Shown one piece after another: positions 22,445 through 59,100 of a DNA stretch of 64,000 bases. Position 1 is the first letter of the stretch. Every line of letters begins with the position of its first letter. A program made the translations under genes and the position numbers. Where the stretch lies: positions 21,290,144-21,354,143 of the forward strand of contig OX393568.1 of the NCBI GenBank assembly GCA_947652115.1. Direction: 5' to 3'. The notes under the pieces were generated by a model that was not told the DNA's origin, did no database searches, and saw only the letters and a program-made list of their open reading frames with translations. This DNA comes from Blastomussa wellsi. Its lineage: Eukaryota; Cnidaria; Anthozoa; Scleractinia; Plerogyridae.

Positions 22445-25400
22445 ATGTCGCTGATTATCCACGATACGATATCTTTGACTACAGCGAGTGGAGTTAGCAA
22501 GATCCAGTTGTGCATTGGAGATATAACCAAGCTGTCTAAAGATGAGCAAGCTGATGTATTAGTTGTGTCTGCGTTTCCAGGTATTATAAATATCGCAAAA
22601 CTTTGACGGTCGATCAACAACAATTTGAAACTTATTCAGCATGAAAATATTACGGTTTCTTGGTCTCAACAGGTTCATGATTAATAGTTTTGCGGAATTC
22701 GTGAGCTTGTTGTGGTTTATATACATCTTTGAAATATTTGCTGTAACTGTTTGAGGCATAAATTTTCACCAGTGATATCAAGTGAGCCAAATGAAAATGA
22801 TCATATTATGAATGTCATATCCTTTTTTCGATCTCCGATTTCTGGCTGTTTGTTATATCACTTTTTTAGGATTTTCGTGGCAGTTGGGTCAGTTCGATTG
22901 TATTTCGTTTACCTTAATCACCGCCAAACGTACGCGATTTTGATTGTTTTCGAAGGCTAAAAGTCGTAAATTTGAGGAATTTCAGGAGGAACCTTGTTTG
23001 ATTGTGTAGCCTCCCACGGAGGCGTTTTGTATCTCTGAATATAAATCCCGCGGGGGTGGAGAGCGGGCATAGGTGGGGTATTTGACAGTGGGTTGGGGAC
23101 TTTTGACTGTTTATTGGCCTACCTAGCAACATTTTATTGACTTGCAGTGACTTTTTTGACCATCTACAATTAAATCTCAGCTCAGTTCAAATTCAGTGGC
23201 GGATCTGAAGGGCCGGAAAATTTTCTGGGTCCTTCCCCTCATCTTAGAAAGAAGTCTGGATATACCACTGAAATTCTCCACCTACGCCTGCACCCCACCC
23301 CCCACCCCCTTGCGCGATTTACATTGATAGGTGCGTTAATACGAGGTCACCTTGTACTTTTCTCCACTAACGCTGTGGGACAAGCAACGAGATCAAAACA
23401 ATGTGCTAGAGATGATTCATCTTACTCCAAGTCAGAGATTTCCATTGTAAATTCATTTTAGATTAAATCTGAATTTGCAAAAGAACCTTACTAAAGGGAA
23501 AAGCGATGCATCTGTTAATTTACTGACGGGCTGCGGCATGTTTCTTGTTTATCAAGCTTTGCCTTCAATGTGTTCGACAGTCAAGGTCATTAATTTCAAT
23601 GTTTTCCTATTTTCCCCTCCCCCCTGAATGGGATGCTAGTCCATTGCAGGGTTGCCTCCAGCAGTAAATTCACCAGTACCCATTTATACACCTGGGTGAA
23701 GAGAGGCACTGTGAGAGAAAAGTGTCTTGCCCAAGAACAGAACTCAGTGCCCTGGATACAGGCTAGAACCCGGACCATCTGATACCATAAGGCCACTCTG
23801 CCTCCCCTAATAAAAACCTAGCCTACCGTAAAATGGTAGTTACTAGTCTGTGACAAATGTTGCTGCATCATGGCAACCATGACCTGCATAAGGTCACACA
23901 TAAGCTGATAAGCCACATGGCTTCTGCAGTTGACTGCATTGAAACAGACCAATATGGTCTAACATTAAGCGATGTTTTACTCCAGGTGACTATTCACCAA
24001 CACCAACTTCACTGATTGGAGCGCTAGCCATTAATCTTGGCATCAGTGTCCGAAAACTTTCCAGTGACAAAGAAGAAGACCTACGCAAACAGTACTTCTG
24101 CTGGTGGTCAAAGCCACTTCCTGAGCAGCACAGCTTTAGGAGAATCCTCTGTTTTGAAGGAGGATTTGGTAGCAGGGGGAGCACACCACCAAAAGTTGTT
24201 GGTGCAGTGTTTCGATGTCTTGTACCTATTCTTAGTGGCAAGGACTCCAAGGGAGGATCAGTAATAATGCCTCTTCTTGCGTCAGGCGATCAGGTATTTA
24301 TATGGACAGCAGAATAAACAACAGTCTTTCTGTGCAGGCTGAATTCTTACTGGACTTGAGTGGAGAGAGACGGGAGGATAGGGTGGATAAGAGCCCTGGA
24401 AAATAGTGTCAGGAGGGATATGGGAGGACGGAGAACAGAGGGAGGGACGTGGCATTGACACATTAACTCCTGAAGATGTTTGCAAAAAACGCATTTTCGG
24501 ACATTTTGAACATTTTCTAGTCATTTGTAGGCTAAATCTGCTCCAAATCTCCAAAATGCATTTGAAAAATAAAGACATGCCACGTTTTTCACTAGAATCA
24601 CATTTAATGACATTTTAGCTCGGGCATGTGCTCAAATCAAAACTTCAAGATAGTTTTTGGACAAGAAAGTGACCCACCTCTTTAGGCTTTTCGTTTTCTT
24701 TATTTTTTATTCGCTTTTCCTTTCTCCTTCTTCCGTATCTTTTTCATTGATGCATTGGTTGGCTTTTTTCTGGGCTTGCTTACGGTTTAAGAACTGCCAA
24801 GATAGCATCAATGAGACGGGAAATACTTAACACAGAGTGAGTGAGAGAAATTTTCCTCCTAGCTAGTTTTTGACAGAAATTTCTAAGCATTAATTTTTTC
24901 TGAATCTTCACTTGCAGCCAGTTCCCTTTAGGCGGAGCTTGTTCACAGGCCGTGTCTGTTACTGAATTAACTGGTTGGGGTTGGTGGGGTGGTTCACACA
25001 ACCTTAAAATTGGTGTATACACCCTTTAGTGAAATTACATAATCCTTTCAGGTCTAATCTTAATTCCTACAACTTTAAATCCCTTGTTCCATCATGTTCA
25101 GGGATACTCCAAGCGACTCATGCTTAGGCTGATAATCGACTCTGCAATACACTGGATCAAGGCTGGCCTTGAATTAAAAACTCTCAAGATTGTCTTGTTT
25201 TCTCGTCATCCTGAAAAGCATGACAAATCATACGAGCCACTCTTTGAATGTTTCCAGAAGATGAAAGACCAGTACGGAGACAAAGAGTTGACATACGTAA
25301 GTTCCTAATTTTCCCTTTTTGTTGATTTGAGAAGATGCATGTTATGTAACTGAAGTTTTTTCCCAAATAGCACACACTCGTTGACTTCCTGGAGGTCACA

Positions 25401-27718
25401 TGATATCCAACAATACTGTTTCCCACCAAAAGGTTGTCTTTTGAGTGAGCAACATTGCAAATATCCATACATTGACCGATGACCACTGTTGCATGACTCA
25501 TTGCACATAAATCTTTTATTAGCAAATAATTCATTGTGCTATATAACAAATCACTGGTACCTTGTGAGCCAGATGAGTTAATTTTGTTTCCCTCGAATCT
25601 CAAAATCTCTGTCTCAGGAAACAATGAGATTCTCAGGACAGAAAACTGTTTCCCTCAGGGTCGGAAATTAACTTTTTATGTTTATTTTTATGACTGAGCA
25701 TTTTTTCAGTCCCCAAATGAAAAAATCTGTTGGCCTAAAAGTGGTTCATAAACGTTTTGCCTCGCAGCAAAACATGAGACTGAAATGTAAGCTATAATAA
25801 ATGTAGCTTGCATTTCAGTTAAGAAGGAGTTTTCCTTGTCGAATGAACAGATAGCTCTCTTCGTTTGAAGACTGACCTGTACAAAGCCTTCAAGAAGCCA
25901 TGCACATGAACAAGTGCTCATATTGCTCATTCCAGGCCCCTTCTGAACAAAATTGTGTACACGGTATGACTGTTAGGTGAAACCATTGAAAACATGGTGG
26001 CCACTAAATTACAACAGTTGTACACATTTAAAATGCAACTTTGTCATTTTTATAGGAAACAGAGATTATCTATGATGTGTACACGTCCCACAGTCCAAAG
26101 GACCATGATTCTGCCCTCCAGATTGCAAAGTTCTTACGGACTGAGAGACGAATGAAAGTGTTTCATGATTTTCAAGAGCTCAATGATAATGAATCTTGGC
26201 AAGAAGAAATCTTTGACATCATGGGTAGATGTGCACGTGTTATTGCCTTGTTGAGCCCAGGCTACTTGGAAACAGAGAGCTGCATTGAGCAGTATAACAT
26301 GGCACTTTGCATTAACAGACGGTCACACGGATCACTACTGGCTCCTTTTTATATCACTTCAATGGATTATATGCCAACATACATGAGCCTCATTCAATAT
26401 GAAGACTGCAGGTAAAAGTCATGAGTTTCCAGCTTTTGAATATTATATTGAGCATGCTGACTTGTTTTCGGTCAAGGCATGACAACCTAATGGTTAGTGC
26501 ACTGGACTCCATATTGGGTACTGGTACTAACTTGGGAAATTTAAGGCGGCTGAACACAGTTTTTGAAGATTTGCAGGGTTGTCAGTAGGTTTTTGAGTAG
26601 GAGGTTCCATCCAAAAAGTAGGCAGCTATTTCCATTTTATTTCTCCAATATCACGCTCAGAACTGACCTACTAACATTCGGAGTAGCTGGCGCAGTGTTA
26701 GGAATAGCCACTGAAATGCGCCGGTTGCCGGCTTATTTTGACAACCCTGGATTTGAGTACCAGCCTGTACTTTATCACAATGTGAAATGTAATGCCATCA
26801 GCTGATAAGCCCAAACTTAGCATACTGCTACATAATAATTATTCAACACTGCTGAAGTCACTTTGTGAAGTCTATTTTGTAAAGTAGGCCATTTCCATGG
26901 CATCAAATATCAGTTTATGAGCACATTGCATAAAGTATATGTTACTTTTTCCGATTACCTTTCATAGGCCAAGAGATAAGGAAAAAATCATAGCGGCAAG
27001 TAATGATGTTGCAGACTCATTAAAGCAGTTGCAGGAAGATGTCTCATCGCCCAGTGAAACAGAAAAGACCACCAAAACACCAAGTTATGATGTGTTTATA
27101 TCTTACTCACATCAGAACAAGACTCATGCTGACAAGGTGCTGGAAACCTTGATGACTCTTGCTCCAGACTTGAAGATCTTCATTGATACAGCTGGTTTGA
27201 ATACTGGAACGTCTTGGCAACAAACGCTCTACAAGGCATTAGGTAATGCACATGAATCTGATCTATGGCTATATATATAAAGATTATAAAGCGCAGTGAT
27301 TGGCTAATAGGTGGGACTGGATTTTCCTGTTATACACGTGGCTTTTTGGACCACATATGGTGTTCTCACTGCTCAATACGGTCTTCGGGCTTGTTAATAA
27401 GAATTACCAACAAATTCAGTGTTCCACGACCCGTTGAATCCACCTCATGTGAGAAGTTGGTGATAGGCTTCTATCAATCAAATCTTATAATGGCCTTATA
27501 TAGAAGGGTTTGATTGCATAAACAACTTCAAATGGTTTGATTAAACAAATACCTTCCAGATAAAGTTTATTGTTTGTAGGTTTTGTTTGATGGATGGCTA
27601 TCACCAACTGCTCGCAGGAATTTTAATTCAAATGGTTGCATATCACTGATTTCAGTGACCTTTTTTTTGATTATGCGGTTTTTGTTGCCGTGTTTATTAT
27701 TATTATTATTATTATTAC

Positions 27719-27777
<59 letters not shown>

Positions 27778-29949
27778 CACTGGACCTGACTCGAACAGTC
27801 TGGGTTCCTGGCCGGACTTGTTGTCCATTGTTCGATTTTGTTGTGTCTTGGGCAAGACTAAGTACTTCTCCTCTCATTTTTAGATTCATCTAAAAGCACC
27901 ATCGCTCTCTTGTCGCCAGACTACATCAAATCCAAAGTGTGTTACGAAGAATTCTGCCTGTCGTATGCACTCTCTGTGGATAAAGACAGTTGTGTGGATC
28001 TTGTAAGCTTGTTAGTGGAGCCTGTACTTGAACTGCCCCTGTGGTGTAATCAGCCACACCCTGCTGACTGTGCTTCGTCACACGTGGACCCGGATCGGGT
28101 GCTGTCGTCAGTGTGTGCTGACGTGGTTAATAGGCTGAAGGGTAAGCGAGATACTTGAGCAGACAACAGACGGCTAGTGCATGACCATAATTGAATGATG
28201 TGAAGATATTTCTGTGTGACGTCATAGTAATTCTAACTTTTATAGGGCATATAGAAGCAAAAAGTATTAATTCAATCAGCACAACTATTTGTTGCTTTCC
28301 AAAACAATCCCAAACGTCTTAGTACACTTAAGGGAGCTACATCATGTTTTGAGCATCTTGAAAAAATTTAGCCTGGCTAAATTGAGTTTCAAATTCATCA
28401 TTTTTAATCCGTCTCAATCTTCTCCATCCTTAACCATCGTTGTTCCTTTTTGGTTTGGTGTCACCTCTTTGCTGTTTTTCTTCCTCAGTAAACTATTATT
28501 TTGAGGTTACATTTGGGTAATTTGTTTCGTCCCAAAAGAAGTGAAAAAATATCGTGGCGTACAGTAGCTCATTGCATTTATGCCCGTCTGCAAATCAGAG
28601 TCACGTTGTTAACCCAACCCCTCTCTGCACGTATATTTGCAGGAGCAGATCAAACGGCAGATGATGTTCTCATACGGCGAGTGCATGACCTGAAGAAGGG
28701 AGACTTCACAATTGAATCGTCTATGGACAATTACAGGAAATCCAGGTTTGTGCTGCGATCAGGTGTGCTTAAAACTCCTGTGGAGCTCAACAGCTGCAAT
28801 GAGAAAGAAACCTTGAGAGCGAGTCATGCTAGCGATGTGGTAATGTCCATTGATGGCCACCATATTGGCGTTGATCTGGGATCATCCCAAGCAACGTCAT
28901 CTCAAGTGACGTCATCGGATCCCACGTCATCGCAAGTGACGTCATCAGGCTCTGCCGCTGTTGACGTCGCCCTCAGTTATGCTGAAGGAGATAAAAGAGC
29001 AGCAATAGTCCTGAAGCAGCTACTTCTCGAGAAAGTACCCTCTTTGAAGATAAGCGAGCCGGTGACAGGAGACTTCTCCAGGGTGCAGTCGCTAGACGTA
29101 GCGCGGGTTATTGTAGCGCTTCTGTCGCCCGCCTTTCTGGCTTCGAGCGAACTGGTAGAGGAACTGAACATTGCAATTTTCCGAAATCGCAGTTCCTCGC
29201 GACGAATACTGTTTCCAGTGCAAGTGGCTGCGTTTCCTCCCAAGCCTTCATACGTTCATCTGATCCCGTGCGAGTTCTCGAGCTCTGACTACAGATGGGC
29301 TTGGCAAATGGTCGGCAAGAGCGTGAACGACGAGGTATCGCGAATAGCGGAAAGGAATTTTATGGATCGTGATGAAGCGTTTTGTTTGAAAACTGCAGCC
29401 AGCGAGATTTCCAAGCGCCTTTTGGAAGAAAGTCAACAGGATTTGAACCTTGTCAATCGAGTTTTGCTGAATGTTCACGAGATAGAAGAGGACTGGAACC
29501 AAGTGAAAAAAGCACTTCAGCAAGAAGAAGGGCTAGTGACGTGGAAACGAGCGCTTAGAATTGAAATAAGCAGCCTGGAAGGCGATTATAAGCCGGATAA
29601 AATAATAGAACTGGACGAGATGAAGTCAGACGCTGGCACTGAGCCTGTCAGTGGTGGCCAGTATGAATCCAGCGGGGTAGAGTTGCATCTAAAAGACATC
29701 AGAGAGAATGATTCGTGTGAACGAACTGATAATCAGGCTCACTCTCAAGAGCTAACCGAGCATACTGTCAATAGTCATTCCTTCGAAAATGAATCAAACA
29801 AGGTGGAAAAAAGTGTGAGATTTCAAGATGTTTCGAAGACATCTTCCAAAGATAACGAGACTGCTGTTTCAAATGCGGATATTGCGAGCGGTTCTCCTCA
29901 CAGTGATAATGGTAGGAGGGCAGAATCTAAGTCTTGTTCAGTGCTTTAA
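22445..29949 (+). CDS. Macro-like domain plus three TIR domains, CaaX C-terminus
   Basis: Exons: 22445-22580, 23986-24293, 25102-25296, 26056-26411, 26968-27242, 27884-28141, 28643-29949; GT-AG throughout, 944 aa. The ATG is the first in frame; an in-frame TGA lies 21 bases upstream. Residues about 20-200 have the macro pattern: IQLCIGDIT, ADVLVVSA, then VIMPLLASGDQGYSKRL and LKIVLFSRHP. TIR1 (about 219-335): YDVYTSHS, WQEEIFDIM, ALLSPGYL. TIR2 (about 372-500): YDVFISYS, KIFIDTAGLNTGTSW, ALLSPDYI, KVCYEEF with Glu446 at the NADase position. TIR3 (about 616-730): VDVALSYA, ALLSPAFL, LVEEL with Glu683; its BB-loop region is degenerate. The tail is acidic/Ser-rich and ends CSVL, a CaaX box of the geranylgeranyl type. 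Seen: domains and frame. Known: TIRs act as scaffolds or NAD+ hydrolases, macro domains bind ADP-ribose. Inferred: a membrane-tethered NAD+/ADP-ribose immune or stress sensor. I recognise no named orthologue. Confidence 0.9.
23625..23815 (-). mobile_element. tRNA-derived SINE, reverse orientation
   Basis: Read on the minus strand: GTGGCCTTATGGTATCAGAT, GGTCCGGGTTCTAGCC (B box), GGGCACTGAGTTCTGTTCTT, GGGCAAGACACTTTTCTCTC, ACAGTGCCTCTCTTCACC, then ATGGGTACTGGTGAATTTAC. Same family as 8612-8790. It lies in intron 1 of the macro-TIR gene. Confidence 0.6.
26478..26530 (+). mobile_element. SINE head fragment
   Basis: CATGACAACCTAATGGTTAG, TGCACTGGACTCCATATTGG and GTACTGG recall the A-box half of the SINE at 8612-8790; the rest is not recognisable. 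It lies in intron 4 of the macro-TIR gene. Confidence 0.35.
27694..27775 (+). repeat. (ATT)n microsatellite
   Basis: About 26 ATT units with one ACT interruption, in intron 5 of the macro-TIR gene, directly followed by a SINE-like fragment. Long poly-Leu/Ile/Asn frames here are artefacts. Confidence 0.95.
27776..27875 (+). mobile_element. SINE-like fragment next to microsatellite
   Basis: GCACTGGACCTGACTCGAAC, GTCTGGGTTCC and GTTGTGTCTTGGGCAAGACT match the head and the TTGGGCAAGAC body word of the SINE family at 8612-8790. It ends about 10 bases before exon 6 of the macro-TIR gene, so it abuts the splice acceptor region. Confidence 0.45.
28868..28952 (+). repeat. Coding Ser/Thr-rich repeat carrying two CRE palindromes
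   Basis: Inside exon 7, imperfect repeats of TSSQVTSSD / TSSQATSSQ type (residues about 591-612) form a linker in front of TIR3. The DNA contains the full palindrome TGACGTCA twice (near 28913 and 28938), each in the word CAAGTGACGTCATC, plus the half-site CACGTCATC between. TGACGTCA is the CREB/ATF consensus. Confidence 0.7.
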
Positions 29950-35163: not shown

Positions 35164-36290
35164 GATCGTGGGTTCCAGGAACAACATTGGGAGACACCGC
35201 GGAAAAACCGCGCACGCGCATGACGTCACGATTTCTCGAGGTGGTCATCGTCAGCAAGGGTAACCTGCGTTTTCTTTTTTTAACTGATGATAAGTAGGGA
35301 GGGAGGGCATGTTCGCAGGTTACAGCAAGGGAGGCCAATAATACATCGATGGCATAATTGTAGTTCTAACGTGCGAACTTATGAACTTAGGGAATATTAG
35401 GGATTTCCTTAAAATTGCCAAAATGTTCACATACCCTCGCTTTTCCGCAGTGTCGAATGGGATCGAGACCTCTGACTGGTCCCAAGTTTGAGCATGCGCA
35501 GAATACCAATTCCGATATATCAATATTCTAACATGTCGTCGAGGCTTGGGGAAATAAAACAAAAGATTTTGCATCGAGGCTTAGAGATGGATAACTAATT
35601 TCTTTTGTTTTTTTTTACCAAGCGTCGGCGCGCGCCATGTTAGAATTCGAATTGGTCTATTTTCAGCCAATGTCGTGATTCGCGGACTTCCGGTTTTGGA
35701 GGCGGCCACTCGATCCTTTGCGCAGGCCAGAAGAATCTTGGGCTCTGGTGGGAAGGACAGGCCACATTCGCAGCGGAAGAACACACAACGCAAGAACGCA
35801 AATGTAAAACCATGTACCTCCAGTGTAATCTCATTAGAGAATGCCCTAAAAAATTGCCAAAATATTCACATTTTCAGTCATTCTCTAGTTTTTCCGGTCT
35901 CGTCCCAGTCGCCCGCGTGATAGGTCCCCTCGGGGGGCGGGTGTAAGACGAGGAGAGCAAAGGCAAAAATAGGGCAACGTAAAAGTGTAAAGCTGCATGG
36001 CTGATACTACGTAAAAAATTGCGAGAAATCAACATAACCGAAACCTTAAGAAGAAAAGTAGCTTTCATCGATTGTAGAAAAAAACATCCACCATTGCTGC
36101 GCAAAAGAATTCTTGCATCACCCAAATCCCCTGCCCCGCCCCCACCCCGCCCCATCGCTTTTGTTTTCTTTTTGTTCATTACTTACGTGACGAACAAATC
36201 AACGTCTGCGTAACGCCATCATTGACTGATAGGTAACCAATCAGAACGCATGTTTACCTTTCTCGTGTGCATGTGCACAGTAGGAAAGTT

Positions 36291-46698
<10,408 letters not shown>

Positions 46699-56176: not shown

Positions 56177-59100
56177 TTAATCTTGGATCTTCAAAATATT
56201 CTTCTTCTCTATGTCCTCCATCTCCTTCAATACATATGCAACATTGTACCGCAACTCATGAAATTTGGACGAAGATACCTACAAGGGTGCAAATGATACA
56301 CTTCTGTGAAAGGTGCTGCTGCACTTTGAATAGTATCATGGAGTTGACCATGATTTTGGTCCAAATTAGCTAAATTTAAACTTCTAATGCCTCGTCAATA
56401 CTGAAATCGTTTCTAAATCACTAATTTTATAACATCAAGTAAATTCAGAACAGTAGGATGAGGCAAAGTACATGTTATGTTAGTCCTCATTTCATATGAG
56501 ATGCAATAGAAAAGCTTGAAAACGTCAGCCCAACCTTTTCAAGTTGGCATCAATCTCGATCTTGGCCATCTGCTTGCCAAAACATCTATAAACAGTTTCT
56601 ATACATTATGATAGTCTTTCAAAGGACCTTTTATCATTATGATGCAGCTTTTGTTAACCGAAAAGCAGCCCTTGGATTTTTGATGTGTTACTAAAAATAG
56701 CACGATACTGCCACTTTAAGACAGCTAGAGAACCAAGACAAGGTGGCCAGATTCGAGCCATGGCCAGTTTCACCCCATTGTGGGCAAGAAACTTTGCTCT
56801 CATAATGCCTCTCTCCTCCCAGGTGTAGTCAAGATGAATTCCACTCAAAGCTTGAGCAATAAGTGCAAAAAATGATTAATAAAAATCCACTCATAACATG
56901 GTAAGCATTTTGTGTACTACTTGAAGCATCTCACCAAGTTCCGGGGGGAAAATTGATGAGAAATGCCCGGCTGTTTCCGTCTTCTCCAGGGATGTAGCTA
57001 AGAAATTACAAACCCGGCTCACAAACAAGCTCAGCTGGCTTTTCTGACCATTGTACCTGCAAAATTTCTTCAAGTCTTTGTTTTCTAGTGAAATTTAAGC
57101 CGGCGATAAGCTCTCTTTCAGCCGGTGAAATTAGCCGGTAGCCAGCCCTTAGCTACATCCCTGCTTCTCTACTTTCTTTTATAAGAAACACTAAAAATGT
57201 CCAGCTGCAAAACCCTATCGACCTCCTTCACAAAAACTTAATGAAACCCCTGTCAGTGTCAGTTTATTTCTTCAAGTAACCCTATGATTAATTTGTCAAG
57301 CATTCTTGGGAAAACTAATGTCAAACCTGATTAAAATACGGACAACTTCAAATTCAGTTAATTTCTCTGGTGGGGTCAGCTTGAGAGCTTATGTCTCAAC
57401 GGTATTCAAAATGTTACCATGCTATGAGGTTTTCTTGGTAACTTCATCCATGCCATCTTAAATGCGTACCAGCAACTTTAATGCTGGGAGGTAACCAGCA
57501 TCCCATCCAGGGGGAGTAGAAATACCAGGATAAGCTCCGACAGTATGTACCATTTGGGCCGATGCAACTTTATCTTTACAGAAGCCAACTTTTTTAAGTG
57601 ATGGGTTCTAAAAAATCTCTTAAATGACATAACACTCACCTCAAATGTGTGGATTTTTCCATCACTAAGTTTAAGCTCCATGAGCACTGAAGGCTCAAGC
57701 ACTCGGTTGAGAGCACTGAAAGGTGAAGTATGTAAATAACTTAATAGCCCAGATATTAAGGTCCCCAGATTTGCAGATTGCTTTTGGGGCCTCCAAAGAC
57801 TAGACATTAGTTGTCTACAACTATTTGTCACTGACAAATGAATTTTATCAATTGGTTGAAAAGCTCAATCCAGAAACTTAGAATCCAATGTGGGCTGAGT
57901 TTGTTGTTGGTTCTCTCCTCGCTTCGAGGGTTTTTCTCCTGGTTCTCCGGTTTTCTTCCCTCCTCAAAAACCAAAATTTCTAAATTCCAATTCGACCTTG
58001 ATAGAGGACCCACATGAAAAGCAGTTGAGACTGACATGGCTTCCTCTCTAAATATTGTTATTTATTTTTAAACCCTAAAAAAATCAAACTGAAGTACGTC
58101 ATTTTCCCATAGTAATAGCCCAGATATTAAAGGGCCCTAGTCAGCCTCCGCCATTTTCGATGGCATCGAAATTATGGAAATTGTATAGTGAAACTAACAG
58201 TGTTCTGGAAGATGCAAGCATTCCAAACAATGGAGTGTTAGTTCCTAATGACTAAGTCAGGCCAGTGCGAGCTAAGGAAATAACGTTCACTATGCATGCT
58301 AATAACACTGACCACTCACCACATAGTTACAATAGTTGCCAACAACTAAACCAATTATTCCCACACAGAGAAAAAGACTAAGCACTTTCCCTTTTCAAAA
58401 AGGGGAAACTGCCTGGTTGTCAATATCTAAACATAAGCATTTAGTTGTGGTCTACTCATCTCACACTATGTTTTTTCCTTGAGCAACATCAAGTTGGAGA
58501 TAATTAATTATTTAATTATTTTCAACAACTAAATGTGTTGTCCATATGGCACTTTGCCCTTGAAACATCCTGTCTACATGTACACCTTTTATTCTCGTTG
58601 TCATAATAGTTTTCGCCTGAAGTGACTGTCTGTCTTCCCAGGCATCCATATTTTCATTTGGCTGTGTGTTGTCAAGCCAGTGCTTTCAAAAAGCAATGGA
58701 AAGTGTTTGCTACTTTGCTTAGAAAGGTCAACCACTTTTTGTCCAAATTTGAAGAAATTAAAGATTCTCAAAAATTAGTCGGTTACTCTACTCAAACCAG
58801 TTGCCCACTTCAAATTTTATTGATTTCCCTGGGTCAAACATAATTTGATAGTTCATATGTTCAGATGCCATTTCGAAAGGCTGATGATATCACATATTGT
58901 TATACATTTCTCTCTGGGGGTATATAATTGTATTTTCTCTAGCCCTCAAGGGTACCTTTTATATATCAACATCTTGCAGGGCACGAAATTAACTTTTTTT
59001 CAAGGAGCCATCTGGTTCCTTAATTTTCCAAAGTGGTCGCCAAGACCAAAAAGTTAGGAGCCATTTTTCACATGGAAGGTGTCGCCATGGTTGGAAGAGT

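Follow-up and report, generated by a model that had tools for sequence, protein, structure and literature searches.

A coral gene joining a macrodomain to three TIR domains and a CaaX tail, with relatives among invertebrates and bacteria

The stretch of Blastomussa wellsi DNA analyzed here (the window: 64,000 nucleotides of contig OX393568.1, positions 21,290,144 to 21,354,143) contains a seven-exon gene for a 944-residue protein, in which a macrodomain is followed by three TIR domains and a C-terminal CaaX motif. The protein is kin to bacterial fusions of a macrodomain with a single TIR domain. In our preferred reading, for which belief and doubt are about evenly weighed, the gene is a member of an ancient invertebrate macro-TIR-TIR-TIR-CaaX family built on a bacterial-type macro-TIR base, and its second TIR domain would be a prenyl-anchored enzyme cleaving nicotinamide adenine dinucleotide (an NADase), gated by a nucleotide-reading macrodomain. 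The features of the gene, in positions of the window, are the following:

22445..29949, plus strand: whole coding region, seven exons, 944 residues, single genomic copy (from in-frame splicing and genome matches).
22445..25296, plus strand: macrodomain, residues 1-213, exons 1-3; GDIT motif, with Asp26 at 22520-22522.
26056..26411, plus strand: TIR1, residues about 218-345, exon 4 with its tail in exon 5; Gln292 at the catalytic Glu position, 26290-26292.
26968..28141, plus strand: TIR2, residues about 372-505, exons 5-6; Cys443 at 27940-27942 and catalytic Glu446 at 27949-27951.
28957..29349, plus strand: TIR3, residues about 615-745, exon 7, the third Pfam stretch; Glu683 at 29161-29163.
29350..29946, plus strand: C-terminal helices and a low-confidence tail ending ESKSCSVL, read from the sequence; CaaX box CSVL at 29935-29946.

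The coding region is composed of exons 22445-22580, 23986-24293, 25102-25296, 26056-26411, 26968-27242, 27884-28141 and 28643-29949. All exon borders are GT-AG, and the spliced frame has a single stop, which is terminal. A protein search of the 368-Mb coral genome gave seven matches, the gene's own seven exons, and hence no paralogue among them. The Montipora relative is 66% identical over 94% of the length and the Nematostella relative 44% over 94%; a chance joining of the domains is excluded, because the relatives align over most of the protein. The single protein with a macro-like domain and three TIR domains, proposed in a sequence-only reading made before any search, is thus confirmed by GT-AG exons in frame and by relatives that are similar nearly end to end. 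Furthermore, an N-terminal macro motif is present in seven of nine proteins encoded on short contigs (P0005, P0006, P0008, P0158, P0167, P0169 and P0173). The coding sequences of these seven (766-961 residues) fill 81-95% of contigs 2751-3244 bases long, and the family profiles find all four domains in each. The contigs look like spliced transcripts, and transcript-like contigs with all domains argue against separate genes for exons 1-3 and 4-7. Given also the full-length orthologues, the two-gene reading is unlikely. Bacterial contamination is ruled out by the introns and the animal orthologues.

The N-terminal domain, predicted to be macro-like from its motifs, has the macro fold: in a structural comparison of residues 1-213, the closest folds include the macrodomains of PARP9, PARP14 and macroH2A, at 12-16% identity in the top rows listed. 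The fold begins within the first ten residues. SLOG, the other fold considered, was discarded, the structural matches listed being macrodomains and presumed carrier fusions. Domain profiles bore out the expected architecture in part: the Pfam scan found the three TIR stretches of the coral protein but nothing in residues 1-214, PF01661 included. Among 83 relatives, PF01661 is found in two at E up to 0.1 (best E 0.0023). A profile matched 14 PDB sequences (up to E 10), ten of them named as PARP14/15, YmdB-type, MACROD1 or AF1521 macrodomain proteins; the other four (1spv, 6qzu, 9zrc and 2dx6) are presumably macrodomains as well. In addition, P0045 shows a weak match to an ADP-ribosylglutamate hydrolase model in its macro part (E 0.018). 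The Asp of the GDIT motif contacts adenine in other macrodomains. It is present in the coral protein (Asp26) and kept in 78 of 83 relatives. Nine of 15 invariant macro residues lie at strand C-ends, against 64 of 205 positions (p 0.016, with the definition chosen ad hoc), which gives weak support for such a placement.

The TIR_2 match of the coral protein reaches E=1.4e-38, and three TIR_2 stretches are likewise found by Pfam in Montipora, Owenia and Haliotis rufescens. The three domains differ in their active sites. TIR2 carries the Cys and Glu of the C-x-x-E motif, nearly invariant across the sampled animals, so that the NADase signature attributed to it beforehand holds. In TIR1, the catalytic Glu is gone in most animal rows, and this domain is probably non-catalytic, judging from its residues. 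In TIR3, the Glu is present in 52 of 58 ungapped rows, and the motif Cys is missing in most. Many animal TIR domains are adaptors, and the degenerate sites of TIR1 and TIR3 would suit a protein in which no domain is catalytic in vivo, the three TIRs acting as MyD88-like adaptors at the membrane. Such a pure scaffold is unlikely, given the near-invariance of the TIR2 active site and the fact that the best BLAST matches of TIR2 among the relatives searched are macro-TIR proteins (E 6e-26). TIR3 matches the non-animal relative P0107 with an E of 4e-13. Elsewhere in the coral genome, TIR_2 matches are clustered, six at G000:C10:7179797-7321111 and four at G000:C9:17210551-17441384, which suggests local TIR expansions apart from the macro-TIR gene.

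The acidic tail described in the earlier reading is present, with the correction that it ends in a CaaX box, CSVL. Of 61 animal rows, 34 have a Cys four residues from the end (position -4), as against none of 149 rows classed as bacterial by their id range. The CaaX-bearing rows include the coral, Nematostella, a nemertean, molluscs, a bryozoan, echinoderms and hemichordates. A final Leu or Phe is typical of CaaX boxes that receive a geranylgeranyl group, and CSVL is a likely lipid-anchor signal.

With profiles built from the macro-TIR family, the order macro-TIR1-TIR2-TIR3 was found in 55 of 61 animal rows, and in 38 of the 40 that had contributed nothing to the profiles. The nearest named relatives include Montipora, Porites and Pocillopora. 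The relatives named among the matches listed (120 of 450 in the family profile search) are, as we take their phyla to be, cnidarians, echinoderms, hemichordates, molluscs, an annelid, a brachiopod, a nemertean, bryozoans and a flatworm. These listed matches name neither vertebrates nor arthropods, nematodes or sponges, which is not proof of absence. The earlier statement that no named animal protein has this layout fits the searches, but the gene is no coral oddity: it belongs to a family without a name that is widespread in invertebrates and has macro-TIR relatives in bacteria. The animal macro-TIR profile also picks up a long protein, P0194 (1697 residues), for which PP2C-type, Hsp70 and FHA domains of Pfam are listed as well.

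Outside animals, the nearest relatives are macro-TIR fusions, about 345 residues long and with 36-55% local identity; the named bacterial match P0037 has an E of 3e-51. The same macrodomain subfamily is joined to a TIR domain in the same order in prokaryotic proteins such as P0037, L012 and L015. A genome scan identified 12 loci. The macrodomain is followed by a TIR domain in Verrucomicrobiaceae (L009), Anaerolineae (L012 and L018), Nostoc (L015) and Chitinophagaceae (L014 and L019), and a Lokiarchaeon (L010) has a 226-residue open frame that ends where the TIR starts. The combination is rare: matches were found in two of 295 genomes from the class of Agriterribacter and in two of 292 from the phylum of Nostoc. 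In each draw, one match was the centre genome and the other (L034, L035) carried DUF4145 in place of the TIR. The macro-like domain is also fused to DUF4145 at L020. At L035:488-8405, in the genome from the phylum of Nostoc, the macro-DUF4145 protein is flanked by a 694-residue protein that matches no Pfam family and by an AAA / DUF2357-PDDEXK_7 pair.

In three Bacteroidota loci, L014 (Agriterribacter), L016 and L017, the macro-TIR gene lies inside a common gene run, judged by protein length and first residues. The run at L014:2710-11403 comprises a patatin, a MAP3K_TRAF_bd/TPR-S protein, a small protein with a weak CAP12-TIR match, the macro-TIR protein, a further TIR protein with a carboxypeptidase-regulatory match below cut-off, and a second TPR-S protein. 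TPR-S is a predicted sensor of NAD-derived signals, and the run is possibly an undescribed defence locus. Moreover, P0021 combines a tubulin-like domain (PF13809), the same macro-like domain and a TIR in one protein, at residues 36-376 and about 860-1139. These contexts would fit a module of conflict systems. The Nostoc macro-TIR protein had no match in plasmid or phage collections. No named defence family accounts for the relatives: PADLOC matches in ten proteins are in the TIR part, some starting up to ~55 residues earlier, and NCBIfam matches in eight proteins fall mostly in the TIR part, below cut-offs, the others, such as that of P0045, being weak. The prokaryotic macro-TIR family, unnamed in the libraries searched, is a candidate for a role in defence.

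These elements can be assembled into a putative mechanism. Prenylation at Cys941 would hold the protein at a membrane, where TIR2 would act as the NADase and TIR1 and TIR3 as scaffold domains aiding its assembly. The macrodomain would bind an ADP-ribose-type nucleotide or an ADP-ribosylated target and thereby gate TIR assembly; the ligand could be the protein's own product, the product of another enzyme, or the ADP-ribosylated target. NAD+ would be lost or a nucleotide signal produced, leading to cell-autonomous defence or cell death.

Domain counts, tail, trees and ligand site all supply points that weigh against this reading. Only two Pfam TIR_2 stretches are found in Nematostella and in 10 of 10 further relatives, TIR3 being weak. 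A terminal CaaX is lacking in 27 of 61 animal rows, Montipora included; fragments and isoforms account for part of these, but others seem to be complete, and some may have no such motif at all. In a tree of 63 macrodomains, the 18 animal rows and two further rows form one clade (100/100), one half of which holds the named cnidarians (97/73) and the other the named bilaterians (97/92); the sister of the animal macrodomains is not firm (91/70). In favour of the reading, each TIR position has orthologues of its own: TIR1 (98/94) and TIR3 (100/99) each form one clade in the careful TIR tree, and TIR2 is one clade (100) in the quick tree. Against it, TIR2 is grouped in only 39% of the careful-tree bootstraps, and that tree joins TIR1 and TIR3 with the bacterial TIRs in a set (87/99) to which TIR2 does not belong. 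Hence, the trees do not establish a triplication of one bacterial TIR. The outgroup, seven rows of which five are other coral TIRs, has long branches; it stands apart in the careful tree (91/93), yet beside 12 bacterial macro-TIR rows in the quick tree, which held three more outgroup rows that were omitted from the careful one.

The simplest reading is one acquisition before the cnidarian/bilaterian split; donor, direction of transfer and source of each TIR are inferences, given the long outgroup branches and the uncertain sister group. A fuller scenario is possible, although we lean against it. Early animals would once have taken up a bacterial macro-TIR defence protein before that split, multiplied its TIR and added a prenyl anchor. 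The product would be a one-protein, membrane-bound generator and reader of NAD signals, like a collapsed Thoeris system, that persists, among the relatives listed, in the animal groups named above. Its weight is reduced because the trees do not trace the TIRs to one bacterial TIR.

At the ligand site, the NAAN motif and the glycine-rich GGG loop of MacroD/YmdB-type ADP-ribosyl-hydrolases are absent, with VVSAF and SLIGAL in their place. Binding of ADP-ribose (ADPR) may therefore be changed or lost, and the domain may have another ligand or be a non-catalytic reader. Moreover, Ser replaces the GDIT Asp in P0006, P0007, P0008 and P0013, one of them from Rhopilema, and the ligand of these members may differ. 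The missing NAAN is what would be expected if the macrodomain read proteins or nucleic acids that PARPs or an invader had ADP-ribosylated, with the TIRs as output and the ligand external to the protein. PARP9, PARP14 and macroH2A are among the closest folds, and the macrodomains of PARP14 and macroH2A1.1 are non-catalytic binders (PMC11204291, excerpt). Bacteria, however, carry the same macrodomain fused to a TIR, in genomes that may or may not encode PARPs, and we regard this alternative as somewhat unlikely. Least probable among the alternatives is a macrodomain that acts as an enzyme, clearing or breaking down what the TIR makes and so limiting the signal, as the hydrolase NAAN and glycine loop are not present.

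Our preferred reading, a gated and anchored TIR2, has its closest described parallel in TM-macro Thoeris, in which ThsB can make ADPR and imidazole adenine dinucleotide, and ThsA macrodomains bind both and oligomerise (PMC11204291, excerpt). The coupling of TIR and macrodomain, noted from the sequence as Thoeris logic, matches that system as the excerpt describes it. There, ThsA and ThsB are separate proteins and ThsA has transmembrane segments, whereas the coral has one fused gene and, as likely anchor, a C-terminal prenyl site. No transmembrane part precedes the coral macrodomain, judging from a fold that starts within ten residues and without use of a transmembrane predictor. The prokaryotic fusions share macrodomain subfamily and domain order with the coral protein but have one TIR and no CaaX in 149 rows, in contrast to its three TIRs and CaaX. 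PARP9, PARP14 and macroH2A are remote in sequence, and the Pfam families of the coral protein are TIR families only. By that scan, it also has no LRR or Ig ectodomain of Toll-like/IL-1 receptors. SARM1 has ARM and SAM domains, neither of which the scan found in the coral protein. The two are alike as animal TIR proteins of likely bacterial origin, SARM1 being an NADase thought to be bacterial-derived (PMC13142454, excerpt). Mollusc Tolls with tandem TIRs are Toll receptors and hence different (PMC4929906, excerpt). The ecTIR-DC proteins, to which the macro-TIR family may belong, occur widely among invertebrates, and vertebrates apparently lack them (PMC6321704, excerpt). Uncharacterised eukaryotic TIR clades 10-13 also include cnidarian and mollusc proteins (PMC13142454, excerpt).

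No report of an animal macro-TIR protein was among the literature matches listed, key TIR surveys lying outside that search. Bacteria use the pairing of TIR and macrodomain as an anti-phage logic. Their union in a conserved animal protein, together with a near-invariant TIR active site and a likely membrane anchor, would offer a new, testable NAD-based pathway in invertebrate immunity; next to SARM1, the protein would be another animal TIR protein with a likely origin in bacteria. It may be a so far unstudied immune protein that came from bacteria, and the Nematostella orthologue, LOC5508685, makes the family accessible in a laboratory animal.

The neighbouring open frames of the window are ordinary-looking. 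Those at 36237-36998 and 57481-57864 gave weak TPR and RING-finger matches on the plus strand and a COMM domain on the minus strand.
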